Assembly (NCBI RefSeq): GCF_002216065.1
Contig: NZ_CP022282.1
Coordinates: forward strand, 4,030,001-4,094,000
From: Chryseobacterium sp. T16E-39
GTDB taxonomy: Bacteria > Bacteroidota > Bacteroidia > Flavobacteriales > Weeksellaceae
Reading direction: 5' to 3'
DNA length: 64,000 nucleotides
In this document: one piece after another, positions 15,438-29,947 of the stretch
How the letters are laid out: every line of letters begins with the position of its first letter
Numbering within the stretch: the stretch's first letter is position 1
Made by a program: the position numbers and the translations under genes
Notes under the pieces: generated by a model
Told to the model about the DNA's origin: nothing
What the model saw: the letters and a program-made list of their open reading frames with translations, nothing else
Databases searched by the model: none

Positions 15438-16153
15438 TAGATTTTTGGGCAGAACTGCCTCGTGCTGATGAAGATTTTTTAGGATCTATCAGGGACTGGA
15501 AGAATATTCAGATAGCAGTGGAGGATGATACGATCTGGCTTAAAGGTTTTACTGAAGAACAGGCTGTTTCTCCGGAGGTACAGCAATTGCCGGATTTCAT
15601 TTTATATGAACTCCGTAATGGATTATTATTTAAAAAGTCGGCTTTGGTTCCTGCGAAGAAAATAAGGACGGCTTTGTTATGGTCGCCAATTGATAAAGCT
15701 TTACGCCTTGTTTTTCCACCTTCTAATCAGAATTTTTTTGGAATAAAGGAAAAAATAAAAATACAATTAAAACCGAGTACTGAAGAACAACCTGCCGTAG
15801 CATTATTAAGTCTGATATCGCAGATTAATGATATGGTCATTGCATTGCCAAAATTTAAACTCGAGAGAAATGAATGGATCGTTATTGAAGATAAAGCACT
15901 ATTCCTGGGGATACCTTTATTGAGTTTACCTGGAAAAACATATTGGGAGAAAGATGGACATCTTTTACCCACCGGATTTGATTTTGAATTTAAAAATTTA
16001 AGTCCTTTACTTCAACGGAAATATAATGAACACCTGGATCAATGGCTTTTATGGAATGAAGACGGCAGCTATTTATCTATTGTTAAAAAAGATTTGAAAA
16101 AGTTGTCAGCAAGTTCTTACCGCCTCACACAAAAAGCGAAAGAATGGAATTAA
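15410..16153 (+). CDS. Probable bpX-type component of a MoxR-vWA-beta-propeller system
   Basis: 247 residues. The start ATG lies 28 bases inside the ATPase gene and the stop overlaps the vWA gene by 10 bases. The N-terminus (ERIIDFWAELPRADEDFLGSI) is helical, the rest beta-rich with recurring aromatic/proline turns (LLWSPIDKALRLVFPPSNQNFF, LFLGIPLLSLPGKTYWEKDGHLLPTGFDFEFKNLSPLL). Position and character fit the bpX-named families that accompany MoxR and vWA genes; which bpX type cannot be decided by eye. Cytoplasmic. Confidence 0.65.
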   Translation: MAKDLTERIIDFWAELPRADEDFLGSIRDWKNIQIAVEDDTIWLKGFTEEQAVSPEVQQLPDFILYELRNGLLFKKSALVPAKKIRTALLWSPIDKALRLVFPPSNQNFFGIKEKIKIQLKPSTEEQPAVALLSLISQINDMVIALPKFKLERNEWIVIEDKALFLGIPLLSLPGKTYWEKDGHLLPTGFDFEFKNLSPLLQRKYNEHLDQWLLWNEDGSYLSIVKKDLKKLSASSYRLTQKAKEWN

Positions 16154-20182: not shown

Positions 20183-21194
20183 GCAGAAGTTTATAGATAA
20201 ATTTATCAGAGCATTTTTTATCCTGGTATTTCTTAAGATGTTGGGACTGACTGCCCAGCTGTTTCATCAGAGTTTCTGGAGTGTATTAGGTACCCTGGGG
20301 ATTTTTCTTATCGTAGCTGTTATTATTTTACTTGTCATAATTAGTCTTAAGGATAAAGAAAAAGGGGATCGGAATTCAGGAAGGAGAGGAAGCTCCGGTG
20401 GAAGCTTCTATCTTGAAAATTCACTTTTTGACAGGATCCGCAGTAAATATGAAGAACTGGCCGAAAAATATATAGCGGACGGTGATTATAAAAAAGCGGC
20501 AAAAGTTTATATGAACCTTCTTCAGGACAATTACCGCGCTGCTAAAACACTGGAGAATGGAGGATTATATAATGAAGCTGCGGTTATTTATCTTAAAAGG
20601 TTAAATAATAAATCGGATGCTGCAATCTGCTATGAGAAGGCAAAACAATACAGAAAAGCAATTGATCTTTACAAAGAATTGGAGCAGAAAGAAAAGGTGG
20701 GTGATCTTTATAAAGAGATGAATGATATAAAAAATGCTCATATTTATTACCGGATGGTTGCGGATGATTTTGTTGAAAATAGTCAGATGGTAAAGGCCTC
20801 ACTGGTATACCGGAAAAAAATGGAAATGCCGGAAGAGGCTCAAAAGGTTTTGTTAAAAGGCTGGCAGGAAAATAAAGATACATTCAACTGTTTGAATAAT
20901 TACTTTGCTAATATTTTTGACCATAAAAAATTAGAAACTGAAATCCAGGCTTTGTATAACGAAACACCGTCAGACAAAAAACTGATCTATCTGGAAGCAA
21001 TGAAGTATGAGTTTAAAAAGAATTCTTCCCTGCAGCTGGTGACAAGAAACATAGCTTATGAGATCATTTCGGAAAAAGTGGAAACCCATTCAGAAATTGT
21101 AAACGAGCTAAAGTACTTTAATCCTGATGATCCGCTTATTTTAAAAGATATTTCCAGGTATAAGACAGGAAGGAATAAAATGTTTAGGAATTAG
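20175..21194 (+). CDS. Membrane-anchored TPR-like protein of the MoxR/vWA operon
   Basis: 339 residues. Two N-terminal hydrophobic segments (about 9-30 and 36-60, LGTLGIFLIVAVIILLVII) are followed by a basic, Gly/Ser-rich linker (GDRNSGRRGSSGGS). From about residue 90 tandem helical units of TPR/SEL1 character follow (KYEELAEKYIADGDYKKAAK, NEAAVIYLKRLNN, KAIDLYKELEQKEKVGDLY). Start overlaps the previous gene by eight bases. It is the last gene; TPR arrays usually bind partner proteins, so it may be the effector-recruiting arm of the system (inference). Confidence 0.75.
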   Translation: MNKQKFIDKFIRAFFILVFLKMLGLTAQLFHQSFWSVLGTLGIFLIVAVIILLVIISLKDKEKGDRNSGRRGSSGGSFYLENSLFDRIRSKYEELAEKYIADGDYKKAAKVYMNLLQDNYRAAKTLENGGLYNEAAVIYLKRLNNKSDAAICYEKAKQYRKAIDLYKELEQKEKVGDLYKEMNDIKNAHIYYRMVADDFVENSQMVKASLVYRKKMEMPEEAQKVLLKGWQENKDTFNCLNNYFANIFDHKKLETEIQALYNETPSDKKLIYLEAMKYEFKKNSSLQLVTRNIAYEIISEKVETHSEIVNELKYFNPDDPLILKDISRYKTGRNKMFRN

Positions 21195-21479: not shown

Positions 21480-21511
21480 CAAAAACGCCTCGATTATCGG
21501 GGCGTTTTTTG
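21480..21511 (+). terminator. Terminator after the small ORF
   Basis: AAAAACGCC(T)CGA and TCG(G)GGCGTTTTT form a 13-bp stem with one G-U pair and a T run. Confidence 0.85.
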
Positions 21512-21736
21512 CGTTTTTAGAAGAGAAATTATTTAGAATGAAAAAAAATAACCAAAAAAGTGAAAATTTTTAATTAACGATGGAATTTTAATACAATAAA
21601 ATAGAGTGATAAGAAAACCGGTGAGAGACAGTCATTTAGGTAATTAAAGGATCTGCAAAAAATTGCGGACAGGAATTTGCATGTCTTTATTTGAGTTTAA
21701 ATTACTGATTTTCAAATAGTTGAATTAAAATTTTAT

Positions 21737-21767
21737 TTGCGAATTCGAAAAAATCATATTTACTTTG
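21737..21767 (+). promoter_or_regulatory. Probable promoter of the tRNA/ncRNA array
   Basis: TTG at 21737-21739 and TTACTTTG at 21760-21767 are separated by 20 bases. The -7 element and its two flanking bases equal those of the promoter at 28067. Confidence 0.45.
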
Positions 21768-21830
21768 CAACCGAAAATTAAAAGCAACAGGCTTTCTGGT
21801 TTTCAAAAATGTTTAAAACAAAAAAATATA

Positions 21831-21956
21831 ATGAAACAATTACATTACATAATTAACCGCAATTCAAAACTACAGGGACAAGAGCCGAAGGGCTTCGCTT
21901 GTATTCTTGATCGTGAATTTATGAATGAAAGGTGCTTATATACGTGGGTCGACTAA
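21831..21956 (+). CDS. Possible 41-residue ORF in a structured leader
   Basis: ATG 21831 to TAA 21956 gives a 41-residue product starting MKQLHYIINRNSK. Within the frame the RNA can fold: ACAAG/CTTGT around AGCC/GGCT at about 21868-21893. The frame overlaps the start of the tRNA-like element at 21930. Either the ORF is real and short or the stretch is a structured RNA. Confidence is low. Confidence 0.3.
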   Translation: MKQLHYIINRNSKLQGQEPKGFACILDREFMNERCLYTWVD

Positions 21957-21988
21957 CGGCTTGATCCGTCAAAATATATACAGCACCT
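21930..21988 (+). ncRNA. tRNA-like hairpin, no T-arm
   Basis: AGGTGCT (21930-21936) and AGCACCT (21982-21988) form a perfect 7-bp acceptor-like stem, followed by TA as at tRNA positions 8-9. The inner hairpin ACGG-CTTGAT-CCGT resembles an anticodon arm with a 6-nt loop. No T-arm is visible. The 3' strand can alternatively pair with GAGGTGCT of the following terminator hairpin, so the two structures exclude each other. Confidence 0.35.
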
Positions 21989-22011
21989 CCCGAAAAGAGG
22001 TGCTTTTTTTT
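21982..22011 (+). terminator. Hairpin with T run just before the first tRNA
   Basis: AGCACCTC-ccgaaaa-GAGGTGCT is an 8-bp stem followed by seven or more T. It may terminate the upstream small transcript or act as an attenuator before the array. Confidence 0.7.
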
Positions 22012-22013
22012 AT

Positions 22014-22086
22014 GGTTTCTTTAGCTTATTTGGTAAAGCGTCGGTTTGTGGCACCGGAGAACAGGGTTCGATCCCCGAAGATACCC
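22014..22086 (+). tRNA. tRNA-His (GTG), structurally degenerate
   Basis: Anticodon stem TCGGT/ACCGG encloses TTGTGGC, giving anticodon GTG. D-arm (GCTT/AAGC) is intact. The acceptor stem has a T-T mismatch and the outer two T-stem pairs fail (CAGGG against CCCGA). The G-1/C73 pair expected for His can be drawn. No encoded CCA. Could be a weakly folded or decoy tRNA. Confidence 0.55.
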
Positions 22087-22093
22087 AAAGTAC

Positions 22094-22167
22094 AATCTCA
22101 TAGCTCAATTGGTCAGAGCACCGGTCTTTTAAACCGGGGGTTGAAGGTTCAATTCCTTCTGGGATTA
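22094..22167 (+). tRNA. tRNA-Lys (TTT), divergent body
   Basis: Full cloverleaf: acceptor AATCTCA/TGGGATT (one G-U), D-arm GCTC/GAGC, anticodon arm CCGGT-CTTTTAA-ACCGG, T-arm GAAGG/CCTTC. The acceptor starts with A-U pairs, unlike the usual GC-starting bacterial tRNA-Lys, suggesting an extra, divergent copy. Confidence 0.8.
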
Positions 22168-22173
22168 CAAAAA

Positions 22174-22245
22174 GGTCTATTGAGGTAATGGCTAACCTGC
22201 CCGACTGTCTCTTGGGCACTGCGAGTTCGATTCTCGCATAGACCG
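22174..22245 (+). tRNA. tRNA-Asp (GTC)
   Basis: Acceptor GGTCTAT/ATAGACC, D-stem AGGT/ACCT, anticodon arm CCCGA-CTGTCTC-TTGGG, T-arm GCGAG/CTCGC, discriminator G73 as expected for Asp. Position 37 is T, which is unusual (normally a purine). Confidence 0.75.
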
Positions 22246-22248
22246 CAT

Positions 22249-22309
22249 AGGTTCATGGAAAACTTTGGCTCCGACTGTCTCTCGGAAAAGAAGTTGGAAA
22301 CTGAACCTT
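22249..22309 (+). tRNA. Mini tRNA-like, anticodon GTC (Asp type), reduced T-arm
   Basis: Acceptor AGGTTCA/TGAACCT is a perfect 7-bp stem only three bases after the Asp tRNA. The anticodon arm TCCGA-CTGTCTC-TCGGA is perfect and its loop equals the preceding tRNA-Asp. The T-arm is cut down to AGTT-gga-AACT and the D-arm is not clear. Total is 60 nt. Confidence 0.5.
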
Positions 22310-22313
22310 AAAA

Positions 22314-22385
22314 CTGGAAAGATAACGGTGGTTGTTTACCCGCCTTGGACGCGGGAGGCCATAGGTTCGAATCCTATTTTCCAGA
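22314..22385 (+). tRNA. tRNA-Pro (TGG)
   Basis: Acceptor CTGGAAA/TTTCCAG, anticodon arm CCCGC-CTTGGAC-GCGGG (TGG), T-arm ATAGG-TTCGAAT-CCTAT, A73. Positions 8-9 are GA instead of TA and the D-stem is short. Confidence 0.75.
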
Positions 22386-22391
22386 CAATTT

Positions 22392-22465
22392 GATTTCGTA
22401 GCTCAATTGGTTAGAGCATTGGTCTGATACGCCGAAGGTTGAAGGTTCAAGTCCTTCCGAAATTA
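22392..22465 (+). tRNA. tRNA-Ile (GAT)
   Basis: Acceptor GATTTCG/CGAAATT (G-U first pair), D-arm GCTC/GAGC, anticodon arm TTGGT-CTGATAC-GCCGA (two G-U pairs), T-arm GAAGG/CCTTC, A73. A divergent body with weak pairs. Confidence 0.78.
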
Positions 22466-22471
22466 CAAAAA

Positions 22472-22543
22472 GATTTTGTAGCTCAATGGTAGAGCGCTGG
22501 CCTGTTAAGCCTGAAGTTGAAAGTTCGAATCTTTCCAGAATCG
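22472..22543 (+). tRNA. tRNA-Asn (GTT)
   Basis: Acceptor GATTTTG/CAGAATC (one G-U), D-arm GCTC/GAGC, anticodon arm CTGGC-CTGTTAA-GCCTG with one T-T mismatch, T-arm GAAAG/CTTTC, discriminator G73 as in Asn. Confidence 0.75.
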
Positions 22544-22577
22544 CAGACAACTAAATGTTAATTGTTTCGAAAGAGAA

Positions 22578-22650
22578 GAAAAAAGGTAGGTCAAGAGCAG
22601 AAGATCTTTACGCCAAATACAGAAAATACCGACTGCCTTTTTCTTTTTTA
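22578..22650 (+). ncRNA. Repeated hairpin RNA, copy 1
   Basis: Arms GAAAAAAGGTAGGTC (22578-22592) and GACTGCCTTTTTC (22631-22643) form a long stem with one bulge, followed by a T run. The loop carries the core AAGAGCAGAAGATCTTTA (22593-22610), shared with copies 2 and 3. Unrecognised family; it lies between tRNA-Asn and tRNA-Cys. Confidence 0.6.
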
Positions 22651-22701
22651 TGAAATTGAAAATATTATTAGAAGATGAATAATAGAGAGTTTATACATTC
22701 A

Positions 22702-22743
22702 CTATCAACTATCAACTATCAACTATCAACTATCAACTATCAA
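22702..22743 (+). repeat. Tandem 7-bp repeat (CTATCAA, six units)
   Basis: CTATCAA is repeated six times with degenerate continuation into ATTATCATTTATAATCA. Similar ATTTATCA-type low-complexity spacers separate most tRNA genes in the array (23000-23030, 23205-23300, 23400-23460, 23540-23620, 23700-23745). Confidence 0.8.
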
Positions 22744-22769
22744 TTATCATTTATAATCAATAAAAATCT

Positions 22770-22851
22770 GATGGTTCGCCGAAGTGGAAGAGTCGGGGCG
22801 GTCTGCAAAACCGTTGCATAAGCTGAGTGGGTTTGAATCCCATAGCCATCT
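22770..22851 (+). tRNA. tRNA-Cys (GCA) on a class II (Tyr-like) body
   Basis: 82 nt. Acceptor GATGGTT/AGCCATC, D-arm CCGA/TCGG, anticodon arm GCGGT-CTGCAAA-ACCGT (GCA), an enlarged variable region of 12 nt, T-arm GTGGG/CCCAT with TTTGAAT loop (T56 rather than C). Discriminator T73 fits Cys identity. D-arm and junction sequences are close to the tRNA-Tyr at 23033. Confidence 0.75.
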
Positions 22852-22879
22852 CAAATAACTAAAATGAGATTAGTTCCGG

Positions 22880-22950
22880 AGAAAAAGTAAAAGTTTGTCG
22901 AGCGCAGAAGTTCTTATATCAAACAAAAAAATCAAGACAAGCTTTTTCTG
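22880..22950 (+). ncRNA. Repeated hairpin RNA, copy 2
   Basis: Inner arms AAAAGTTTGTC and GACAAGCTTTT form an 11-bp stem. The core GAGCGCAGAAGTTCTTAT is at 22900-22917. The element lies between tRNA-Cys and tRNA-Tyr. Confidence 0.6.
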
Positions 22951-23032
22951 ACTCCACATTTTAGGCAGGGGTTAGATAATAGAGTGAAGTAAAATATCAT
23001 TTAGCTATTATCGATCATCATTCATAAAGAAA

Positions 23033-23116
23033 GGAAGTGCGCCGGAGTTGGAGAGTCGGGGCAGACTGTAAATCTGTTGCTTTATTGCTGAGTAGGTTCG
23101 AATCCTACCACTTCCA
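23033..23116 (+). tRNA. tRNA-Tyr (GTA), class II
   Basis: 84 nt. Acceptor GGAAGTG/CACTTCC, D-arm CCGG/TCGG, anticodon arm GCAGA-CTGTAAA-TCTGT, long variable arm (about 14 nt), T-arm GTAGG/CCTAC, A73. The best-formed member of the array. Confidence 0.88.
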
Positions 23117-23123
23117 CAACAAT

Positions 23124-23194
23124 CAACTGATAATGTAATGGCAGCATGCAGGAACTGTACTCTTGTCGCTTAGGTTCGATTCCTAGTCAGCTGA
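23124..23194 (+). tRNA. tRNA-like, anticodon TGT (Thr?), C33
   Basis: Acceptor CAACTGA/TCAGCTG with an A-C mismatch, D-arm ATGT/GCAT, anticodon stem CAGGA/TCTTG around ACTGTAC, T-arm TTAGG/CCTAG. A seven-base loop gives anticodon TGT but with C at position 33 instead of the universal U33, so decoding ability is doubtful. Confidence 0.55.
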
Positions 23195-23308
23195 TTATTA
23201 TTAATAAGAGATAAAAGATAAACGATAAAAGATGGTTGATAAGCCTAAATGCCAATATAGGATCAATTATCAATAATCATTTATCAATTATACATAAAGA
23301 AAGAGGAA

Positions 23309-23384
23309 AGAGAAAAGTTTGTCAAGCGCAGAAGATCTTTACAAACACTAACAAGCAAAAGTTTATATAGACAGGCTTTCTCTA
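23309..23384 (+). ncRNA. Repeated hairpin RNA, copy 3
   Basis: Arms AGAGAAAAGTTTGTC (23309-23323) and GACAGGCTTTCTCT (23370-23383). Core AAGCGCAGAAGATCTTTA at 23324-23341, almost identical to copy 1. Located between the Thr-type tRNA-like and tRNA-Leu. Confidence 0.6.
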
Positions 23385-23461
23385 ACCTTAATTATCAGTG
23401 ACAGATGATAAAGATTATATCTTATCCATTATAATTTATTATTTATCATTGGTAAAATCCG

Positions 23462-23534
23462 CGGGAATGGCGGAACTGGCAGACGCACTTGATTTAGAAT
23501 CAAGATACTAAGGGTTCGAATCCCTTTTCCCGTA
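23462..23534 (+). tRNA. tRNA-Leu (TAG) lacking the long variable arm
   Basis: Acceptor GCGGGAA/TTCCCGT, D-arm GCG/CGC, anticodon arm CTTGA-TTTAGAA-TCAAG (TAG), T-arm AAGGG/CCCTT, A73. The body is Leu-like (GGCGGAACTGGCAGACGCACTTGA start), but the variable loop is only about five bases, whereas bacterial tRNA-Leu carries a long arm. Confidence 0.78.
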
Positions 23535-23621
23535 CAATATTGTTAATTCATAAAAATGTAAATGATAATGTGGTATTTATAAATAATTATCACTTATCTA
23601 TGATCATTTATAATAACATCC

Positions 23622-23694
23622 GGATCAGTGGTGTAGTAGGTCTGCACGTTAGTCTGAAAAACTGAAGGTACAGGTTCAATTCCTGTCTGTTCCA
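23622..23694 (+). tRNA. tRNA-Phe (GAA)
   Basis: Acceptor GGATCAG/CTGTTCC with one T-T mismatch, D-arm GTGT/GCAC, anticodon arm TTAGT-CTGAAAA-ACTGA, T-arm ACAGG/CCTGT, A73. Confidence 0.75.
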
Positions 23695-23743
23695 CGAAAA
23701 TATAGGTAATAACTTATCATTTATAACTCATAACTCAAGATAT

Positions 23744-23815
23744 TGATTCATAGTGTAATCGGTAGCACACAAGACTTTGACTCTTGTTGTTCAGGTTCGA
23801 GTCCTGATGGGTCAA
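23744..23815 (+). tRNA. tRNA-Gln (TTG)
   Basis: Acceptor TGATTCA/TGGGTCA (two G-U pairs), D-arm GTGT/GCAC, anticodon arm CAAGA-CTTTGAC-TCTTG, T-arm TCAGG/CCTGA, A73. Last tRNA before the YkuK-like gene. Confidence 0.78.
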
Positions 23816-23883
23816 CAAAATAATTTACAAACCTCATTTATCAATAATAAAACAAATGTGTAAAACTTAAAAAATTTAAAAAA

Positions 23884-24369
23884 ATGGAAACGCAACAAGA
23901 AATATGGCAAAATATGAGAGGGAAATTTTTCCACCAGGCTATCACTCAGTTGGTAGAAGAAGCCATCATCCGTGAACAGGCTAATGGACATCGACTTAAA
24001 GTTTGTGTAGGATCAGACTCTCATGTATATGGAGATTCTATTAGCTATGCTACAGCAGTAGTATTTATTCGCGAGGGAAAAGGAGCGTTTACTTTTATTA
24101 GAAAACAAAAGGAATTACAAACCATCAGTATTAAAGAAAGAATGCTTAATGAAGTGAACAAGTCCGTAGAAATTGCTTATGCAATCTGTCCTGTTTTGGA
24201 TGCGTACGGAGTGGAAATGGAAGTGCATGCAGATATCAATACAGACCCGGAATTTAAATCCAATGTGGCATTAAAAGATGCAATGGGATATATTTTAGGA
24301 ATGGGATATGTGTTTAGGGCTAAACCTTTTGCTTTTGCGAGTTCTAATTGTGCTGACATTATGGTATAA
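23884..24369 (+). CDS. RNase H-like YkuK-family (DUF458) protein
   Basis: 161 residues. The pattern VCVGSDSHVYGDSISYATAVVFIR, with an early Asp pair (GSDSH), followed by a helical section and then VEMEVHADINTDPEFKSN and GYVFRAKPFAFASSNCADIMV, is that of the YkuK/DUF458 family, an RNase H-fold group. Candidate catalytic acids are the Asp of GSD, the Glu/Asp of MEVHAD and the final Asp of CADIMV. It follows the tRNA array by 68 bases and may be co-transcribed with it, which points to a tRNA or RNA substrate (inference). Confidence 0.8.
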   Translation: METQQEIWQNMRGKFFHQAITQLVEEAIIREQANGHRLKVCVGSDSHVYGDSISYATAVVFIREGKGAFTFIRKQKELQTISIKERMLNEVNKSVEIAYAICPVLDAYGVEMEVHADINTDPEFKSNVALKDAMGYILGMGYVFRAKPFAFASSNCADIMV

Positions 24370-24386
24370 TACAGCTATAAATTCAC

Positions 24387-24788
24387 ATGATGAAAATGAT
24401 AAAAAGATTTTTGTTTTTGGATGATATAAGATTTCCAGTGGAAGCTTATCATTATACAGGAGAGAAGATTTTCCTTAATAAAGATTGGTATATTGTCCGA
24501 AATTACAGACAGTTCGTTAATCAAATTATACAAAATGGACTTCCTGAAATGATCTCTTTTGATCATGATCTTGCTGATATGAATTCCTCAGACTCTGATA
24601 ATTTAAAATTTACAGAGAAAACAGGATATGATTGTGCAAAATGGCTGGTTGAGTATTGTATGGATAATCATCTGAATCTGCCAAAGTTTTACAGTCACTC
24701 AATGAATCCTGTAGGAAAGGAGAATATACTTAGTCTTTTAGAAAACTTTAAAAAAGTTAATAAAGACTCTTACAATAAGTTTCGGTAA
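24387..24788 (+). CDS. Cyclic-phosphate-processing receiver-domain protein (probable)
   Basis: 133 residues. The start is a receiver-like fold: KRFLFLDDIRFP (acidic DD pair), then WYIVRNYRQF, then MISFDHDLAD (Asp where receivers are phosphorylated), DCAKWLVEYC and FYSHSMNPVGKENI. This matches my memory of the cyclic-phosphate-processing receiver family described in RNA-repair gene neighbourhoods; the SHSMNP motif is characteristic. Such proteins are proposed to act on 2',3'-cyclic phosphate RNA ends. It starts 17 bases after the YkuK-like gene; the two should be one operon. Confidence 0.7.
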   Translation: MMKMIKRFLFLDDIRFPVEAYHYTGEKIFLNKDWYIVRNYRQFVNQIIQNGLPEMISFDHDLADMNSSDSDNLKFTEKTGYDCAKWLVEYCMDNHLNLPKFYSHSMNPVGKENILSLLENFKKVNKDSYNKFR

Positions 24789-24812
24789 TTTTTACCGGAA
24801 CTTTTTATATTA

Positions 24813-24847
24813 CGTAAAAAGATTGCGTACTTGTGTTTTTTCTTTGC
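24813..24847 (+). promoter_or_regulatory. Shared promoter/operator module, copy 2
   Basis: ACGTAAAAAGATTGCGT at 24813-24829 is identical to copy 1. The TTG of its right arm ends 13 bases before TTTCTTTG (24840-24847). Copies 2 and 3 also share the TTGTGT stretch and the ending TTTGCA. Confidence 0.6.
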
Positions 24848-24962
24848 ATAGAAATTTAAAAGTATTTCTTCTCAGGATATTTCTTCTCCTATCCTTTTTC
24901 CACTCACCAACTGAATAACAAAATGTAAACGATATTAGAAATAATATGCAGTATGAAAAACA

Positions 24963-25514
24963 ATGAAAAACAAGACAACAAATGAAATAATAATTATCGA
25001 CCTGGAGGCTACATGTTGGGAAAACGATAGAATTCCTACCGGGCAAAAAGTTGATATTATAGAAATCGGAATTTGCAAATTAGATATAGCATCAAAGATA
25101 ATTTCTCAAAAACAAAGTATTTATGTGATTCCTGAAAGATCCGAGATCAACAGGTTCTGTACAAATCTTACAGGAATTACTCCACAATTAATAGAAGAAA
25201 AAGGGATTTATTTTGAAGAAGCTTGTGAAAAAATCAAAGATGAATACCATTCAGAATCACTTAGCTGGGCAGGTTTTGGAAACTTTGATAAAGAGCAAAT
25301 CTTTGAACAATGTGATTGGCTCGGAATAGAAATTCCTTTCTCCTACGATTATCTGAATGTGATGTATGAATTTAAAGATCACTTTAATCTTCCAAAAATG
25401 ATGGGTTTAAAAAGAAGCCTGGATTATTTGAAAATGGATTTTGAGGGAAATCATCACAGTGGAGCAGACGATGCTTACAATGCTGCCAGAATTTTGAGAG
25501 AAATTTTGAAGTAA
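24963..25514 (+). CDS. DEDDh 3'-5' exonuclease (ERI1/KapD-like), copy 1
   Basis: 183 residues of the RNase T/DnaQ DEDDh fold. Exo I: IIIDLEATCWEN (D and E). Exo II: SWAGFGNFDKEQ (D). Exo III: NHHSGADDAYNAARIL (H and D). The ATCW pattern after exo I is typical of ERI1/KapD-like RNA exonucleases rather than the DNA proofreading subunit. It is preceded by the shared inverted-repeat promoter and followed after 27 bases by a paralogue. Confidence 0.88.
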   Translation: MKNKTTNEIIIIDLEATCWENDRIPTGQKVDIIEIGICKLDIASKIISQKQSIYVIPERSEINRFCTNLTGITPQLIEEKGIYFEEACEKIKDEYHSESLSWAGFGNFDKEQIFEQCDWLGIEIPFSYDYLNVMYEFKDHFNLPKMMGLKRSLDYLKMDFEGNHHSGADDAYNAARILREILK

Positions 25515-25541
25515 TTATTAACAACAAAAAATTTTAAACCA

Positions 25542-26099
25542 ATGAAAACAACAGATACTATATTAATTATCGACCTCGAAGCTACTTGTTGGGATGACCG
25601 GCCACCAAGAGGTCAGGAAAGTGAGATCATAGAGATCGGAATTTGCATCATGGATGTAAAAACCGGTAAGATCACACAAAATGAAGGAATTTTAGTAAAA
25701 CCACAGTATTCCAGGGTAAGTCCCTTTTGTACCGAACTTACTACGATTACTCAAAAAATGCTCGATGAAGAAGGCATTTTATTCGATGATGCTTTAGATA
25801 TTCTCAGAGCTGAATATAATTCTGAGGACCTCACCTGGGCAAGTTATGGGAATTATGATTTGACCATGCTTAAAAATCAGGCCAGAAGATTTAATCTAGA
25901 TTATCCTTTAAGTGATGATCATATCAATGTGAAAACATTATTTGGACAGGTACATCCAACCATCAGGAAAAGCGTTGGAATGAGCCGGGCGCTGGGAGAA
26001 CTCAATTTTAAACTTGAGGGAACCCATCACAGAGGCGTGGATGATGCCCGAAATATTGCCAAGATCTTACACTGGTGTCTTCAGAATTACTCATTATAA
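25542..26099 (+). CDS. DEDDh 3'-5' exonuclease (ERI1/KapD-like), copy 2
   Basis: 185 residues, clear paralogue of the previous gene. Exo I: IIDLEATCWDDR. Exo II: TWASYGNYDLTM (D). Exo III: THHRGVDDARNIAKIL. All catalytic acids and the His are kept in both copies, so both should be active; divergence lies in the middle. Tandem exonucleases with different specificity would fit end trimming of tRNA or other RNAs. Ends at a terminator. Confidence 0.88.
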   Translation: MKTTDTILIIDLEATCWDDRPPRGQESEIIEIGICIMDVKTGKITQNEGILVKPQYSRVSPFCTELTTITQKMLDEEGILFDDALDILRAEYNSEDLTWASYGNYDLTMLKNQARRFNLDYPLSDDHINVKTLFGQVHPTIRKSVGMSRALGELNFKLEGTHHRGVDDARNIAKILHWCLQNYSL

Positions 26100-26124
26100 A
26101 AGCTCCCTCTAAAAGGGAGCTTTT
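26098..26124. terminator. Terminator between convergent genes
   Basis: AAAAGCTCCCT and AGGGAGCTTTT arms around CTA, then TATTTTT. Confidence 0.85.
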
Positions 26125-27016
26125 ATTTTTCTGATCGTCCCACTATCTGCTTAACTTTTTCACACACAGGGGTGTATAATTCCGGTGGAATAGAATGCCC
26201 CATTCCTTCAATAATCATCAGCTCGGAATTAGGAATAGATTGAGCAAGGTCTCTGGCACAATCGGGGTGAAAAATAAGATCGTTTGTACCATGGATGATG
26301 AGAACAGGAGCTCCTATTTGCTTGAGGGTTTTAGGGTCGTATATCCACGAGCCCATAGCCAGTAATTGTCTGAATATGCCATTTTTGGATTGAGAACGGT
26401 TCAGCTCCTTTTCGATAATTTCCTCTTCGTAAATCTCATCTAAAGGGAAAATACCCGATATTTTTTTAGCAAAATCTAGTTTTTCTTTTATGTAATCCTT
26501 TTTATTGATGGCCGGATCGGTAGGAGGTTTGGTCATCATTGACATAATTTCCGGATCCGTGGGTGGCAAATCAGGGCGTAAAGAAGTTGACATAATAATT
26601 GTAAGTGACGAAACTCTTTCCGGAAAATAAGAACCTAAGAGCTGGGCAATGATACCTCCCATAGAACGTCCTATAAAATGTGCTTTTTCAATCTGTAAAT
26701 GATCAAGAAGTCCGATAACATCCTTTGCCATATCCATTAATGAATAAGGAATGTCTTCTTTTTTAATCGTCGAAAAGAGCTGTTGGATATTACCCTGTAG
26801 GTTGATCTCTTTTTCAGCATGGAAAACAGAGTTTCCAGAGTCCCTGTTGTCAAAACGGATAACTTTAAATCCGGATGAAGCCAGTTGTTCACAAAAGGGT
26901 TCATCCCATCGTATCATCTGACTGCCCAATCCTGAGATCAGAACGACAGTTGTATTGTTATTTTCTCCAAAGGTTTCGTAGCATAAATCTACACTGTTGA
27001 TTTTTACGGTTTTCAT
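26123..27016 (-). CDS. Alpha/beta-hydrolase
   Basis: 297 residues. The oxyanion-hole segment VLISGLGSQMIRWDEPFCEQL, the nucleophile elbow GRSMGG in the middle (Ser), the catalytic-Asp region HGTNDLIFHPD and the final GMGHSIPP with the His are all visible. Substrate not clear; the family is broad (esterases, carboxylesterases, peroxidases). It shows no link with the RNA genes and converges on the exonuclease pair across a terminator. Confidence 0.85.
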   Translation of the reverse strand: MKTVKINSVDLCYETFGENNNTTVVLISGLGSQMIRWDEPFCEQLASSGFKVIRFDNRDSGNSVFHAEKEINLQGNIQQLFSTIKKEDIPYSLMDMAKDVIGLLDHLQIEKAHFIGRSMGGIIAQLLGSYFPERVSSLTIIMSTSLRPDLPPTDPEIMSMMTKPPTDPAINKKDYIKEKLDFAKKISGIFPLDEIYEEEIIEKELNRSQSKNGIFRQLLAMGSWIYDPKTLKQIGAPVLIIHGTNDLIFHPDCARDLAQSIPNSELMIIEGMGHSIPPELYTPVCEKVKQIVGRSEK

Positions 27017-27060
27017 TATTTATTGCTTATGCACAATAGTTCTAGTTGATTTTTAAATTA

Positions 27061-27405
27061 TCAGTAAAGGTTTTGAGGAAATTCATGACTTTCTATCAGG
27101 CATTTTTCTGCTTTTAAAACTTCCTGACGATAATTAATATAAGGATTGTTTTGGGCTTCCACTACAGCAATACACTCGAATAAAAAAGAATCTTCTCCAT
27201 ATTCGTTCCAGTCAGCCTGCAATTGTTGATGGGTGTATTGTCCAATCTTTAAAGAGAATTTCATTCTGTTTTCCAGTGCTTCAATATTCAGTGCCCCTTG
27301 AATAAGCTGCCTCCCGGTTACCTTGTTTTTAACAGCTAGAACACCCATTTTTACAGGATAGTCTTTGGCTTTTTCTTTAAGTTGCTGTTTAATGGAATTT
27401 TTCAT
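27061..27405 (-). CDS. GIY-YIG-like small protein with degenerate first motif
   Basis: 114 residues. The order MGVLAVKNKVTGRQLIQGALN, then LENRMKFSLKIGQYTHQQLQADWNEYGEDSFLFECI fits the compact GIY-YIG nuclease group, where GVLAVKN replaces GIYxIxN and the R/E catalytic residues are only partly recognisable (NRMKF, Glu of FLFECI). Activity is doubtful. It lies between the hydrolase and the MarR regulator, 21 bases after the MarR gene. Confidence 0.55.
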   Translation of the reverse strand: MKNSIKQQLKEKAKDYPVKMGVLAVKNKVTGRQLIQGALNIEALENRMKFSLKIGQYTHQQLQADWNEYGEDSFLFECIAVVEAQNNPYINYRQEVLKAEKCLIESHEFPQNLY

Positions 27406-27426
27406 TTCAATTCGGTTATCTGTTAA

Positions 27427-27852
27427 TTATTGTATGTTTCCTCCTAACTCAAATAGCAGGTCAATAGTTGTTTTGAGTGATTTATTTTTTTTAAATGATA
27501 ATATTTCTGAAGTAATATTTTCTGCTGTTTTTTGTGCTTCTTCAAATACTCTTTTTCCGGTGTCTGTAATCACAACGTAGCTCACACGGGCATCTCTTTC
27601 GTTGCTCTCTCTGGAAATAAGGCCAATTTTTTCAAGAGGATTAAGAAGCCTTGTAATCCCTGAAGCCGTTAAACCTATTTTTTCTGCAAGATCGATCCTG
27701 CGTATCTTATGATCCTGGGTATTATTTAGAACGTACAGGATCATAAAATCACTGAAGCTGAGCCCATGTACACTGAGTGCATCAAACTTTCTTGAAATAA
27801 TGGACTGCACTTTGTTCATATTAATTAAAAGTAATAAATCGTCACTTATCAT
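27427..27852 (-). CDS. MarR-family transcriptional regulator
   Basis: 141 residues. Winged-helix segment LSFSDFMILYVLNNTQDHKIRRIDLAEKIGLTASGITRLLNPLEKIGLI followed by wing SNERDARVSYVVITDTGKRVF is a standard MarR pattern. Ligand unknown. It probably autoregulates the small minus-strand operon with the GIY-YIG-like gene and perhaps the hydrolase. Confidence 0.85.
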   Translation of the reverse strand: MISDDLLLLINMNKVQSIISRKFDALSVHGLSFSDFMILYVLNNTQDHKIRRIDLAEKIGLTASGITRLLNPLEKIGLISRESNERDARVSYVVITDTGKRVFEEAQKTAENITSEILSFKKNKSLKTTIDLLFELGGNIQ

Positions 27853-28039
27853 TGATATATATTTGAGTTATCAAGTAATTTAATTATGCAAATGTAATGA
27901 TTTTAATCAATTACAATATTTTATTTACGGTTTTTTTTCAATTTGTGTATTGGGTAAATGAATTAATTACTGATTTTTTGCTTGCTGATGGGTTTGTTTT
28001 CACATAGAAATCTTCAATTTTTATGATCATAATTTTATT
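27853..28039. other. Divergent intergenic region, no gene seen
   Basis: AT-rich. Upstream of the MarR gene on one side and of the shared operator at 28040 on the other. No further gene is supported. Confidence 0.4.
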
Positions 28040-28074
28040 GCGCAAATAGATTGCGCGATTGTGTGATTACTTTG
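28040..28074 (+). promoter_or_regulatory. Shared promoter/operator module, copy 3
   Basis: GCGCAA-N5-TTGCGC at 28040-28056 is a perfect 6-bp inverted repeat. Its TTG ends 13 bases before TTACTTTG (28067-28074), the same offset as in copies 1 and 2. It drives the tRNA-like/ncRNA block and probably the slipin gene. Confidence 0.65.
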
Positions 28075-28093
28075 CATTGTCAAAAAGAAACAA

Positions 28094-28232
28094 TAGTAAA
28101 GTTTTGAAAAACAGGCTTTACTCAAAATATCAGGGAAGTCCAGTTGAGTGTTTCAGTATATCACCATTGCAGAAGAATTTGTTAAGAAACATGATTTTAT
28201 TTCTGTTCAGCTTGACTTGAAGGTTTGAGGAG
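28094..28232 (+). ncRNA. Candidate structured RNA at the start of the slipin block
   Basis: AGTAAAG...CTTTACT (28094-28121) forms a 7-bp stem right after the promoter. Further down, AAGTC/GACTT and CAGAA/TTCTG pairs give a nested fold. GCAGAAGAATTT at 28169-28180 resembles the core of the repeated hairpin RNA. Evidence is by eye only. Confidence 0.35.
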
Positions 28233-28235
28233 TTT

Positions 28236-28291
28236 TCCAAAAAACTTCTACCATGTGCTATGGGTCGAAGGTTCGAATCCTTCTATTTCCG
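28236..28291 (+). pseudogene. tRNA 3'-half remnant
   Basis: A good T-arm GAAGG-TTCGAAT-CCTTC is followed by TATTTCC and G, the look of a tRNA 3' end, but no matching 5' acceptor strand or proper anticodon arm lies upstream. Confidence 0.4.
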
Positions 28292-28294
28292 TAC

Positions 28295-28360
28295 GGGAGT
28301 ATAACTCAGTTGGTTAGAGTAATAGCTTTTTTATGCGTGGGTTCGATTCCCACTCTCATT
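28295..28360 (+). pseudogene. Degenerate tRNA-like (Lys-type loop?)
   Basis: GGGAGTA-TA-ACTC...GAGT gives an acceptor 5' strand and D-arm, and GTGGG-TTCGATT-CCCAC is a perfect T-arm. The anticodon arm is broken (ATAGC-TTTTTT-ATGC), the variable region seems deleted, and the 3' acceptor strand pairs poorly. Confidence 0.4.
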
Positions 28361-28363
28361 TGG

Positions 28364-28423
28364 TTTGAGATAGCTCAGTTGGTAGAGCACTACACTATCA
28401 TTGTAGTTTAAATAGACTCAAAA
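28364..28423 (+). ncRNA. T-armless mini tRNA-like, loop CTATCAT
   Basis: 60 nt. Acceptor TTTGAG/CTCAAA, TA at 8-9, perfect D-arm GCTC-AGTTGGTA-GAGC, perfect anticodon arm CTACA-CTATCAT-TGTAG (anticodon ATC, Asp codon GAT). Between anticodon arm and acceptor only nine bases remain (TTTAAATAG), so there is no T-arm, as in some mitochondrial tRNAs. Confidence 0.5.
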
Positions 28424-28846
28424 TCTATTTTTGGAAGAGTTTCGGATGTTCTCATAAAAAAATATCTGCTATGGAAAACCTGAGCTTTTTCAGTTGTTGA
28501 ATCAACATTTTAAAAAAGCTTGTAAGAAAAATGTTTTTCAGGAATAGAATTAATTAACGAATAATGATGACGAAGTAGATTTTCTAAAAAAGAGGTCTAT
28601 GCGTGAGCGATGGTAACGGATATCCTTTTTTGCTCTGCAAAAAAGATAGAAGTGAACGTAGCGACCCAAGCTGTTGCTTTTGCAATGGCAAAGGGGCACG
28701 CCCAAGATTTGAATGATTGGAAATAAGCTTAAGACTCTTGTTCTGAAATGAATGATTTTTTACTGAATCCCTTTTCTTCCGCCAATTTTGGAAGAAAGAA
28801 CCTCAGTTTTTCCTTTTTGTTATCATAAATAACCTTAAAATATAAT
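28424..28846 (+). other. Region before slipin with several structured stretches
   Basis: No protein gene seen. GTTG-TTGAAT-CAAC and GCTTTTT/AAAAAAGC at about 28485-28550 form one nested fold, and 28600-28702 forms another (separate entry). About 100 AT-rich bases follow up to the slipin ATG at 28847. Confidence 0.4.
28600..28702 (+). ncRNA. Candidate structured RNA with GCGTG/CACGC closing stem
   Basis: GCGTG (28601-28605) can pair with CACGC (28697-28701). Inside, CTTTTTTGC-TCT-GCAAAAAAG is a perfect 9-bp hairpin and GCAATGGC follows TGTTGC. The overall pattern recalls a Bacteroidota repeat-like RNA or 3'UTR element that I cannot name. Confidence 0.4.
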
Positions 28847-29947
28847 ATGATGTTTAGAAATGTACAAATTAAAGCATATCAAGTTGGTTTGGTATTTAAA
28901 AACCGGAACCTGGTTGAGATCTTAAAAGAAGGTAGTCACTGGATTTTTGGTAATAAATCCTTAGAAACCTATGAAATGAAAACATTATTACAAGCTAATG
29001 ATGATCTATTGCTTTTGTTGAAAAATGAAGAGCTGAACACTATGTTGGAGCTTATTGAAGTAAAAGATGGGGAACTTGTTTTGGTGTATGAAAACGGAAT
29101 CTTTAAAGAAGTGCTGCATGTAGGTCAATATGCGATCTGGAAAGGAGTAATGAACAGGGAATTCCTGAAAATTGATCTCACAAAGGTGGAAATTACAGAG
29201 AAAATTTCCAAAACAATCCTTGAAAATGCAAAATTGAAAAATCTTGTCAGAAAATTTGTCGTGACCAATCAGTATAAAGGTTTACTGATCATCGATGGAA
29301 AGCTGGTAAAGGTGCTGGAGGCAGGAACTTATTACTTCTGGATGAACGAAATTTCCGTTGAGGTGAAAAGTGTTGATACCCGTATGCAACAAATGGAAAT
29401 TGCAGGTCAGGAACTTTTAACAAAGGACAAGGCAATGCTTCGGATCAATTTTTATGTGCGTTATCAGGTGGAAAACATTGTGAAAGCACTGATGAATAAT
29501 AAGGAGTATGATAAACAATTGTATATCCTTATGCAATTAGCTTTGCGTGAGTTTGTGGGTGCTTTAACATTAGATGACCTATTGTTGAAAAAAGATAGTG
29601 TAGGAAAAGAGATTCTTAATAATCTGGGGAATAAAGCAGATGATCTGGGATTAAAAGCTTCAGATGCCGGAATCCGGGATGTGATCCTGACAGGAGAAAT
29701 GAAAGAAATCATGAATCAGGTCCTGATCGCTGAGAAAAAAGCTCAGGCCAACAGCATTATGCGTCGTGAAGAGACAGCTTCCACAAGAAGTTTACTGAAC
29801 ACTGCAAAATTGATGGAGGAAAATGAGGTATTGTGGAAGTTGAAAGAAATGGAATATATGGAAAAGATTGCCGATAAGATCGGAGATATTACTGTATCCG
29901 GAAACAGCAATATTGTTTCTCAGCTAAAAGAGATTTTTGCTAAATAA
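28847..29947 (+). CDS. Slipin/SPFH (Band 7) family protein without N-terminal membrane segment
   Basis: 366 residues. The SPFH core is visible in the middle: VRKFVVTNQYKGLLIIDGKLVKVLEAGTYYFWMNE, VEVKSVDTRMQQMEIAGQELLTKDKAMLRINFYVRYQVE, then the helical part LRINF to AEKKAQANSIMRREETASTRSLLNTAKLMEEN. No hydrophobic anchor precedes it, unlike typical slipins. Slipins of this kind are recurrently found with tRNA/RNA-repair genes in bacteria. It lies downstream of the tRNA-like block under promoter copy 3. Confidence 0.8.
   Translation: MMFRNVQIKAYQVGLVFKNRNLVEILKEGSHWIFGNKSLETYEMKTLLQANDDLLLLLKNEELNTMLELIEVKDGELVLVYENGIFKEVLHVGQYAIWKGVMNREFLKIDLTKVEITEKISKTILENAKLKNLVRKFVVTNQYKGLLIIDGKLVKVLEAGTYYFWMNEISVEVKSVDTRMQQMEIAGQELLTKDKAMLRINFYVRYQVENIVKALMNNKEYDKQLYILMQLALREFVGALTLDDLLLKKDSVGKEILNNLGNKADDLGLKASDAGIRDVILTGEMKEIMNQVLIAEKKAQANSIMRREETASTRSLLNTAKLMEENEVLWKLKEMEYMEKIADKIGDITVSGNSNIVSQLKEIFAK

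Follow-up and report, generated by a model that had tools for sequence, protein, structure and literature searches.

A putative ribosome-mediated attenuator ahead of a spare tRNA array in Chryseobacterium sp. T16E-39

Why does Chryseobacterium sp. T16E-39 keep an array of tRNA genes beside genes for RNA-processing enzymes, and how might such a set be switched? We examined a window of 64,000 nucleotides (the whole stretch of DNA analysed), in which a first-pass annotation had seen an RNA island where spare or decoy tRNAs, some of them degenerate, are maintained and processed. The RNA-centred island, the spare tRNAs, the recurring gene order and the repair neighbours all stood up to analysis; the decoys and a general degeneracy did not. 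As judged from sequence, the array is probably an inducible tRNA reserve, controlled by a ribosome-mediated transcription attenuator whose leader covers nearly every amino acid.

Layout and conservation of the array

Positions 21760-24803 read as one unit, which would be transcribed jointly: promoter, 41-codon leader ORF, intrinsic terminator, 12 tRNAs with interleaved hairpin RNAs, YkuK and cREC (Table 1), followed by a terminator at 24777-24803. The promoter was assigned using the Bacteroidota consensus. ARAGORN called 11 tRNAs within 22014-23816, and Rfam added one array tRNA (23124-23194) and two tRNA matches in 28295-28436; these 12 + 2 come close to the 'about 13' tRNA or tRNA-like genes first counted. 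For the slot at 23124-23194, ARAGORN calls in relatives are Thr(tgt), Ile(tat) or Thr(agt), with anticodon loops AATGTAC, AATATAC and AAAGTAC; the loop of the window copy was read by eye. The Asp-Pro spacing is similar in many relatives. The proposed YkuK-type, receiver and slipin proteins and the first of the two exonucleases were recovered by domain searches, and the YkuK residues D45, E85 and D117 are invariant in 20/20 aligned sequences (alignment A2). The exonuclease pair, which ends at a terminator (26096-26126), probably has its own promoter, as identified by eye.

The expected recurrence was found: gene order is the same in 37 of the 40 fetched same-genus loci, more than chance. Among the named loci listed, 64/80 carry at least two tRNAs upstream of YkuK, and all 64 of these array loci have a leader ORF and terminator. 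The named tRNA-YkuK loci listed include 49 from Chryseobacterium, and others from Tenacibaculum, Psychroserpens, Dokdonia and Kordia.

Table 1. Features of the locus (window coordinates)
Feature	Position	Strand	Basis
bpX4 - bpMoxR - bpX2 - bpX0/bpX1 (vWA component) - bpX3 - TPR operon	13654..21194	+	
Putative Bacteroidota-type promoter, TTTG ... TTACTTTG	21736..21767	+	Sequence; conserved in 45-locus alignment
Leader ORF, 41 codons, all 20 amino acids, MKQLHYIINRNSKLQGQEPKGFACILDREFMNERCLYTWVD	21831..21956	+	
Candidate antiterminator, 21930-21942 (in ORF end) pairing with 21975-21988	21930..21988	+	Minimum-energy fold of 21923-22012, z -2.2
Intrinsic terminator, AGCACCTC-ccgaaaa-GAGGTGCT + 7 T	21982..22011	+	
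tRNA-His(gtg)	22014..22086	+	ARAGORN, Rfam
tRNA-Lys(ttt)	22094..22168	+	ARAGORN, Rfam
tRNA-Asp(gtc)	22174..22246	+	ARAGORN, Rfam
Hairpin between Asp and Pro, unlike the three R1 hairpins	22249..22308	+	Fold z -2.75
tRNA-Pro(tgg), C1:G72	22314..22386	+	ARAGORN, Rfam, array comparison
tRNA-Ile(gat)	22392..22466	+	ARAGORN, Rfam
tRNA-Asn(gtt)	22472..22544	+	ARAGORN, Rfam
R1 hairpin RNA copy 1	22568..22670	+	Model R1; fold z -1.53
tRNA-Cys(gca), long variable arm, U73	22770..22852	+	ARAGORN, array comparison
R1 hairpin RNA copy 2	22875..22981	+	Model R1; fold z -2.64
tRNA-Tyr(gta)	23033..23117	+	ARAGORN, array comparison
Odd tRNA slot, anticodon loop without U33	23124..23194	+	Rfam tRNA, 39.6 bits
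R1 hairpin RNA copy 3	23299..23408	+	Model R1; fold z -2.44
tRNA-Leu(tag), short variable arm	23461..23535	+	ARAGORN, Rfam, array comparison
tRNA-Phe(gaa)	23622..23695	+	ARAGORN, Rfam
tRNA-Gln(ttg)	23744..23816	+	ARAGORN, Rfam
YkuK, RNase H-fold protein	23884..24369	+	PF04308
cREC, cyclic-phosphate-processing receiver	24387..24788	+	PF20274
Two ERI1/KapD-like exonucleases, 24963-25514 and 25542-26099	24963..26099	+	First, PF00929; both match KapD model, below cut-off
YrlA-like RNA, two tandem modules	28248..28440	+	Rfam YrlA and tRNA matches
Slipin (SPFH/Band_7)	28847..29947	+	PF01145

The leader, its terminator and the alternative pairing

Ahead of the tRNA genes lies a putative leader-peptide attenuator that the first-pass annotation missed and that suggests how the set is switched. 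A leader ORF was found in 45/45 loci, in 7/7 loci of other lineages (where it was chosen by eye) and in 64/64 named array loci, three sets that overlap in species. The peptides are unalike between lineages, yet each contains 16-20 different amino acids, with a mean of 18.8 where 15.7 would be expected per 41 residues: among 104 unique peptides, 33 contain 20, 32 contain 19, 29 contain 18, nine contain 17 and one contains 16. Proteins of the window, taken as a control, gave 15.7 per 41 residues, with P(all 20) of 0.00015 and P(19 or more) of 0.013. When the leaders were clustered at 45% identity and the median member of each of the six clusters was used, the richness remained significant (Fisher p 1e-6). 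Tested singly, 33/52 leaders reached P < 0.05; those of L126, L129, L148, L149 and L249 did not. Shuffled upstream DNA gave an ORF at the leader position in 242/1280 cases and one with at least 18 amino acids in 35/1280.

Cys is present in 51/52 leaders against 10.7 expected, and part of this excess may be a by-product because the Chryseobacterium antiterminator arm itself encodes Cys. Gly occurs in 52/52 leaders, yet in 0/38 Chryseobacterium arrays, and leader composition did not track the content of the array significantly (Spearman 0.41, p 0.07). Since Thr (14/45), Ala (9/45) or Trp (9/45) is often missing, coverage is near-universal rather than universal. Constraint on the peptide is mild (pN/pS 0.65; variability at third positions exceeds that at second positions by only 27%). 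An attenuator for a single amino acid was rejected, given the range of amino acids in every one of the unique leaders, and no Rfam 15 family, a T-box riboswitch included, reached its gathering score in the leader.

A terminator separates leader and tRNA genes in 52/52 loci and in 64/64 named array loci. Its distance from the stop codon is narrowly distributed in the 64 loci (mean 25.1, sd 3.4, range 21-37 nt; -6 to 75 allowed). In the window its 3' end lies only 2 nt 5' of tRNA-His, and there is no room for a second promoter between them. The 3' part of the candidate antiterminator includes most of the terminator 5' arm. Its pairing energy gave p 0.055 against shuffles in the window, and p <= 0.05 against dinucleotide shuffles in 30/52 loci and in 6/15 further loci tried. 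Its letters change along with those of the terminator: GGTGCTT/AAGCGCC in the genus, GGGAGA/TCTCCC in L118 and L129, AAGGAGAT/ATCTCCTT in L148 and L149, and GGAAGGT/ACCTTCC in L224. Pairing ends 3-18 nt short of the stop codon in the 14 loci listed and 2-18 nt short of it in 13/15 further loci; the other two, L223 and L233, have their best pairing 44 and 36 nt upstream of that codon, beyond the model's reach.

This anatomy resembles that of the ribosome-mediated trp and his attenuators, which combine a leader ORF and an intrinsic terminator, as here, with an antiterminator that uses a terminator arm, here a candidate. Known leaders of that type abound in one or a few amino acids, whereas the present one holds nearly all of them and would yield tRNAs. 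RNA polymerase would start near 21770, and a ribosome translating the leader would sample (nearly) every amino acid. With all charged tRNAs present it would reach the stop codon and crowd the antiterminator 5' arm; the terminator would then form and the array stay off. A stall further upstream, on a cleaved or uncharged tRNA or by a blocked ribosome, would let the antiterminator form and the polymerase read through. Read-through would yield spare tRNAs, which may be charged, hairpin RNAs, YkuK and cREC and, in relatives, RNA ligases and a phosphoesterase as well. YkuK, cREC and the hairpins may all take part in such a response.

The tRNAs and hairpins, and other readings of the array

The array tRNAs are not the only copies of essential tRNAs. 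With the array left aside, the housekeeping set still serves all 20 amino acids, so the array is not the sole tRNA source and, as a spare set should, supplements a complete one. Compared across 38 Chryseobacterium arrays, most array tRNAs are well formed, and 'degenerate' describes a few members only. In most slots nearly every member retains its discriminator and first-pair bases; Phe and the slot lacking U33 are exceptions. Identity bases are intact: Cys U73 in 29/29, Asn G73 in 27/27, Asp G73 in 26/27, Trp G73 in 17/17, Ser(gct) G73 in 7/7, Pro C1:G72 in 35/35, and in the His slot an end pair G:C followed by C in 30/30.

These bases bear on the suggestion that the tRNAs are decoys, feeding or titrating anticodon nucleases instead of decoding. 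Several slots do share the anticodon loop of their housekeeping counterparts (Lys CTTTTAA, Asn CTGTTAA, Trp CTCCAAA) while their bodies differ, the 11 array tRNAs of the window being 58-71% identical to the housekeeping set of this one genome; one slot lacks U33, and in Leu and Cys the variable arm is of a different size than in the housekeeping copies. A nuclease decoy, however, need not keep its acceptor end, and 57/395 stem pairs (counting only positions paired by ARAGORN) show compensatory double changes. We found the decoy claim unsupported and consider it improbable. Still less credible is a constitutively expressed extra cluster or a phage or plasmid relic. tRNA arrays are known in Mycobacterium and in viruses (parts of PMC5966550, PMC6409571 and PMC12803027), and the array sequences are far from the housekeeping copies, but slot order and chromosomal neighbours are fixed in the syntenic genus loci, and the leader and terminator that precede every array tested would be pointless if expression were constitutive.

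A leader that detects ribosome-targeting drugs generally, with the tRNAs as a general translation-stress response, is also rather unlikely, though less so. In whiB7, one such case, the uORF output is a regulator, not tRNAs. According to the available part of PMC12121999, multi-drug uORFs exist, and toiL/whiB7 uORFs share with our leader the use of one uORF for many kinds of ribosome stall; toiL is there an eight-codon putative uORF whose output is a toxin-antitoxin pair rather than tRNAs. In Anabaena, translation inhibitors induce a silent 26-tRNA operon, trn, and when its repressor TrcR is lost, expression of rtcB and of a slipin gene increases as well (available sections of PMC10272220). That operon resembles the present array in being a large spare set apart from, and additional to, complete housekeeping genes, in having an RNA ligase (rtcB) and a slipin in its regulon and, as proposed here, in its link to translation stress; it differs in its protein repressor and its cyanobacterial megaplasmid location, and those sections describe no leader peptide. 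Against drug sensing, such leaders need no full amino-acid set, and codon sampling accounts better for the wide range of amino acids in peptides that are otherwise unalike. The two readings overlap, as a drug-stalled ribosome would also trigger the attenuator.

The three copies of one hairpin RNA noted earlier are real (E 2.8e-11 to 1.5e-15 with model R1, built partly from these copies); the next-best match in the 4.87 Mb genome has E 0.0175 (150 of 8548 first-look candidates scored). With somewhat less than even odds, the R1 hairpins by themselves may be elements of the rrn type that serve the elongation or processing of a long untranslated transcript, outside the reserve proper though compatible with it. 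In the three rRNA leaders read, the R1 core AGCGCAGAAG stands just 3' of both promoters (by eye), and one has a one-base variant at the second site. The pattern RAGMGCAGAAG matches the genome 20 times against once when reversed, with three matches in the array and four in rRNA leaders, but many of the 20 are coding, since eight of ten other contexts read (three minus-strand matches left out) sit in open frames of at least 174 codons. Stem covariation (0.270 against 0.194 shuffled) and changes on both sides in 9/15 pairs (shuffled mean 6.5) also speak for such elements; RNAalifold on alignment A1 predicts no structure by itself, the rRNA copies share the core and not the flanking stem, and 6/7 other-lineage arrays lack an R1 match to E 0.5 (L126 weak, 5e-4).

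RNA-repair neighbours and the bpX/MoxR operon

The supposed second group of broken tRNAs near 28 kb makes more sense as a tRNA mimic resembling YrlA. Rfam YrlA scores 31.8 bits at 28259-28324, below the gathering threshold of 69, and tRNA matches cover 28295-28358 and 28364-28436; the RNA does not qualify as YrlA (bacterial Y RNA), and its likeness is limited to the tRNA-mimic module. By eye, its modules have the permuted order T arm, acceptor, D arm; in the minimum-energy fold of 28240-28365 the first T arm forms and the permuted acceptor does not. YrlA matches also precede slipin in L076, L085 and L148. An RNA-centred island with repair neighbours is borne out in many relatives, whose loci include a T4 Rnl2-type ligase, an RLIG1-like ligase, a metallophosphoesterase or TROVE, the last in Epilithonimonas and others. 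The T16E-39 genome itself gave 0 matches to TROVE and to the Rnl2 query, and PF09414 appeared only below cut-off (22.4 bits), elsewhere. Burroughs and Aravind reportedly described, in 2016, RNA-repair systems that are built on TROVE or SPFH/Band-7 scaffolds and include a tRNA-like RNA; the array loci share with these ligases, cREC, TROVE or slipin, and tRNA-like RNA. We know of no leader attenuator, YkuK or multi-tRNA array in those systems.

Upstream lies a MoxR-vWA-beta-propeller ternary system, whose bpX4, bpMoxR, bpX2, bpX0+bpX1 and bpX3 proteins exceed Pfam curated cut-offs; Pfam reported no vWA domain itself in the bpX0/bpX1 protein. The operon is linked to the array in 37/40 genus loci but, with its own terminator (21481-21509), reads as a separate unit. 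Neither it (13654-21194) nor the leader and terminator (21831-22011) appear in the first-pass annotation. The available text of PMC7159879, which describes such systems with the same bpMoxR and bpX proteins, calls them enigmatic and without conventional effector modules, suggests a variable N-terminal region as effector and, in its main text, has 'tRNA' once, within a reference title.

A broader reading, on which we are evenly balanced, is that the locus may be a near-universal tRNA-pool sensor, in which one leader peptide would use almost every amino acid as a test codon and loss of any tRNA class would bring out spare tRNAs together with enzymes of RNA processing or repair. It would be an ancient circuit for translation rescue in the Flavobacteriales, which in Chryseobacterium adjoins a bpX/MoxR conflict system for which no effector was known. 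Attenuators are the textbook means of sensing one amino acid. If our reading is right, one leader reading almost every amino acid would make a simple and general sensor of tRNA loss, for example through anticodon-nuclease cleavage in phage defence or toxin attack. Spare tRNA arrays would gain a defined job, and the use of tRNA arrays, YkuK and possibly bpX systems would become directly testable in common laboratory strains.

Gene content and conservation of the locus

The window spans positions 4030001-4094000 of a single-contig genome of 4.87 Mb. The YkuK protein, the cyclic-phosphate receiver protein (cREC), the two KapD-like exonucleases, the slipin and the three copies of one hairpin RNA reported by the first-pass annotation are all present in the 8 kb that it describes, where ARAGORN identifies 11 tRNAs and Rfam adds one array tRNA and two tRNA-like matches. 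The hydrolase between the exonucleases and the slipin shows a likeness to macrolide esterases that lies under the curated cut-offs, and the three-gene insert to which it belongs is found in some relatives only. By eye, the promoters of the exonuclease pair and the slipin unit have the pattern ATTGCG..TTGTG..TTTGCA in common, a sequence similarity that hints at one regulator for both.

Coordinates of features in the window
Feature	Position	Remarks
bpX4, bpMoxR, bpX2, bpX0/bpX1, bpX3, TPR (MoxR-vWA-beta-propeller ternary system)	13654-21194	directly upstream of the 8 kb
Terminator of the bpX/MoxR operon	21481-21509	
Folded leader segment	21923-22012	minimum-energy fold is the putative antiterminator
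Separate stable hairpin	22249-22308	between tRNA-Asp and tRNA-Pro; z -2.75; similar spacing in many relatives
tRNA slot lacking U33	23124-23194	
Putative promoter of the exonuclease pair	24822-24849	
Alpha/beta hydrolase, small protein, MarR regulator	26123-27852	between exonucleases and slipin
Putative promoter of the slipin unit	28038-28079	

A cREC gene was present in 102 of the 118 genus genomes searched. From these 102 we hand-picked 40 loci (39 genomes), mainly for long contigs and thus not at random; the order bpX, tRNA array, YkuK, cREC and one or two exonucleases was found in 37 of the 40. In L086, L088 and L089, which are excluded from the array counts, cREC lies in other contexts with no tRNAs or YkuK detected, and in L091 cREC is broken. 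The arrays have one slot order in common, from His to Trp. In many relatives the gap between YkuK and cREC holds ATP-grasp proteins, and the one from cREC to the exonucleases holds a T4 Rnl2-type RNA ligase, an RLIG1-like ligase, a metallophosphoesterase or a beta-lactamase-fold protein; TROVE lies inside the fetched 20 kb in 4 of the 37 syntenic loci. Searches of the window's own genome gave no match for Rnl2, a sub-threshold match only for RNA_ligase and no TROVE, and we therefore regard the window's version of the island as reduced.

Matches to PF04308 (YkuK), the more widespread anchor of the island, occur in 33/148 family, 69/296 order and 41/395 phylum genomes (the samples overlap). Among 52 YkuK loci picked by hand and fetched, at least two tRNAs lie just upstream of YkuK in 14 and fewer than two in 38 (a few on short contigs). 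In ten of the 14 array-bearing loci the fetched stretch shows none of the bpX genes, and 12 of the 14 have TROVE (7) or slipin (5) downstream. We also analysed the best 80 of 550 confirmed relatives from named genomes (the named loci), leaving out minus-strand tRNA calls: 64 have at least two tRNAs in the 3.5 kb ahead of YkuK, and of these 64, 49 come from Chryseobacterium and 15 from others that include Epilithonimonas, Tenacibaculum, Psychroserpens, Dokdonia, Kordia and a Puia MAG. The 16 with fewer than two are mostly from Saprospiraceae and other MAGs; four of these (L234, L238, L247 and L248) offer less than 3.5 kb of upstream sequence. That YkuK always implies an array is ruled out by the 38 fetched and 16 named loci. 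Array and YkuK thus form the stable pair, which bpX joins in most of the Chryseobacterium loci and in Epilithonimonas caeni. A PDB sequence search with YkuK returned no convincing relative (best E 0.31).

Array tRNAs and associated RNAs

We checked whether the array holds the only copies of essential tRNAs, and it does not: the housekeeping tRNA genes found elsewhere serve all 20 amino acids. Compared with its housekeeping counterpart of like anticodon, each of the window's 11 ARAGORN tRNAs shows 58-71% identity. The earlier suggestion of decoy or degenerate tRNAs is rejected as the main reading, since acceptor-end bases persist. We surveyed these bases, which are known identity elements, in 452 tRNAs from 38 arrays (minus-strand calls dropped): Cys U73 (29/29), Asn G73 (27/27), Asp G73 (26/27), Trp G73 (17/17), Ser(gct) G73 (7/7) and Pro C1:G72 (35/35) are retained, and the His end pair G:C followed by C (30/30) is the register of housekeeping tRNA-His. 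Phe, with G73 in 13/28, is one exception. Compensatory double changes occur at 57 of 395 stem pairs, counting only positions paired by ARAGORN. From their sequences, the array tRNAs look to be under selection for usability and not decaying. Further exceptions are array Leu, with a short variable arm, array Cys, with a long one, and one odd slot. This slot has no U33 in the anticodon loop and its nominal anticodon varies among relatives (tgt, tat, agt); it may not decode. Ala, Gly and Val tRNAs are absent from the 452 tRNAs of the 38 Chryseobacterium arrays. A rule that arrays lack all three was dropped, given Gly(tcc) in L148, L149, L223 and L227 and Val(tac) in L225 and L230; no Ala tRNA was seen in the array listings of the fetched YkuK loci and the best 80 named loci.

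The 38 arrays contain 138 copies of the hairpin motif; a match near 21877 is not a hairpin copy and was left out. A covariance model of the hairpin (R1) gave strong matches in the window's genome in the array only (E 3e-11 or better; next 0.0175) and in 7 of the 52 fetched YkuK loci, all from the genus or from g9, a group that includes two Epilithonimonas records. The stem, named by hand and then counted, covaries; RNAalifold alone predicted no structure from the hairpin alignment. The loop core AGCGCAGAAG recurs shortly after both promoters in three rRNA leaders of the same genome (L250-L252, and L266 and L267 near 1501), one site being the variant AGCGCAGGAG, and no boxA-like site with up to two mismatches was found in these three leaders. 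The recurrence of the core suggests, as a lead only, that it may help untranslated transcripts to be elongated or processed. Elsewhere in this genome, L271 (G000:C1:4100006) has a single GAGCGCAGAAGATCTTTA copy outside long open frames, with an R1 score of 29.8 bits.

The group near 28 kb, previously described as broken tRNAs, can be read instead as two modules in tandem, each running T arm, acceptor, D arm, which is the permuted order of the YrlA effector domain. The Rfam YrlA model scores 31.8 bits there against a required 69, and the permuted acceptor is not formed in the minimum-energy fold. Similar partial matches lie ahead of slipin in L076, L085 and L148, and full-length matches of 39-43 bits occur in the TROVE loci L119, L123 and L126. 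Ordinary tRNAs in tandem also give partial YrlA matches, so placement weighs more than score. The RNAs of these slipin and TROVE loci, all well under the Rfam threshold, may represent a diverged family of Y RNAs in Flavobacteriales.

The leader and a putative attenuator

An ORF of approximately 40 codons (33-69 under the rule applied) and an intrinsic terminator lie upstream of every array tested. They are found in 45/45 genus and near-genus loci, which have the promoter-like box TTTG..TTACTTTG in common, in 7/7 loci of other lineages (ORFs chosen by eye among those printed) and, by a fixed rule applied to the array-bearing named loci only, in all 64 of them (among the best 80 of 550). Under this rule the leader is the longest ATG-initiated ORF of 25-90 codons whose end lies near the terminator; where nothing is found, the search moves upstream by as much as 0.9-1.2 kb from the first tRNA. 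Shuffled upstream DNA yields a comparable ORF in 242 of 1280 trials. Despite unlike peptides, the stop codon precedes the terminator by 25.1 ± 3.4 nt (21-37) in the 64 loci. Of the two other frames, one stays open across the ORF in 1 of 116 cases and the other in 0. In the window only 2 nt separate the end of the T run from tRNA-His, too few for another promoter; the distance from terminator to first tRNA is larger in some other lineages, and in L232 it reaches 1.1 kb, counted to the first ARAGORN tRNA.

All 20 amino acids occur in 33 of 104 unique leaders and at least 18 in 94, whereas 41-residue segments of window proteins contain 15.7 on average (at least 18 in 9.8%, at least 19 in 1.3%, 20 in 0.015%). 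Relatedness inflates the raw count, and we therefore clustered the leaders at 45% identity and took the median member per cluster; with single linkage, 108 of 116 fall in one cluster. The six clusters give a Fisher p of 1e-6 for amino-acid richness, two of them (the L129 type and L249) being unremarkable taken singly. Cys is present in 51 of 52 leaders compared with 10.7 expected, part of the excess possibly arising because the genus antiterminator arm encodes Cys; Thr, Val, Ala and internal Met are below expectation. The pN/pS of 0.65 indicates mild purifying selection, which is expected if the residue set matters more than its order; alone, it is weak evidence for coding. Leader composition did not correlate significantly with the tRNA content of the array.

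In the predicted antiterminator, AGGTGCTTATATA at the end of the ORF pairs with a stretch ending AGCACCT that makes up most of the terminator 5' arm. Both arms are in other letters in other lineages and still match. Taken locus by locus, the pairing is stronger than in shuffled sequences at p ≤ 0.05 in 30 of 52 loci and in 6 of 15 further loci. Among the 29 loci listed, 27 have the end of the paired stretch 2-18 nt ahead of the stop codon, so that a ribosome at the stop would hinder the antiterminator; the distance is 36 nt in L233 and 44 nt in L223. Full translation of the leader would be expected to shut off the array, and a ribosome that is absent or stalled upstream would be expected to allow read-through.

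Known attenuators, the Anabaena trn operon and RNA-repair neighbourhoods each resemble parts of the operon. Searches of open-licence papers turned up no account of a leader with nearly all amino acids, nor of the leader-array-YkuK unit. The best-supported reading, which we consider probable, is that the locus is a reserve tRNA operon under a putative attenuator that would test nearly the whole tRNA pool.
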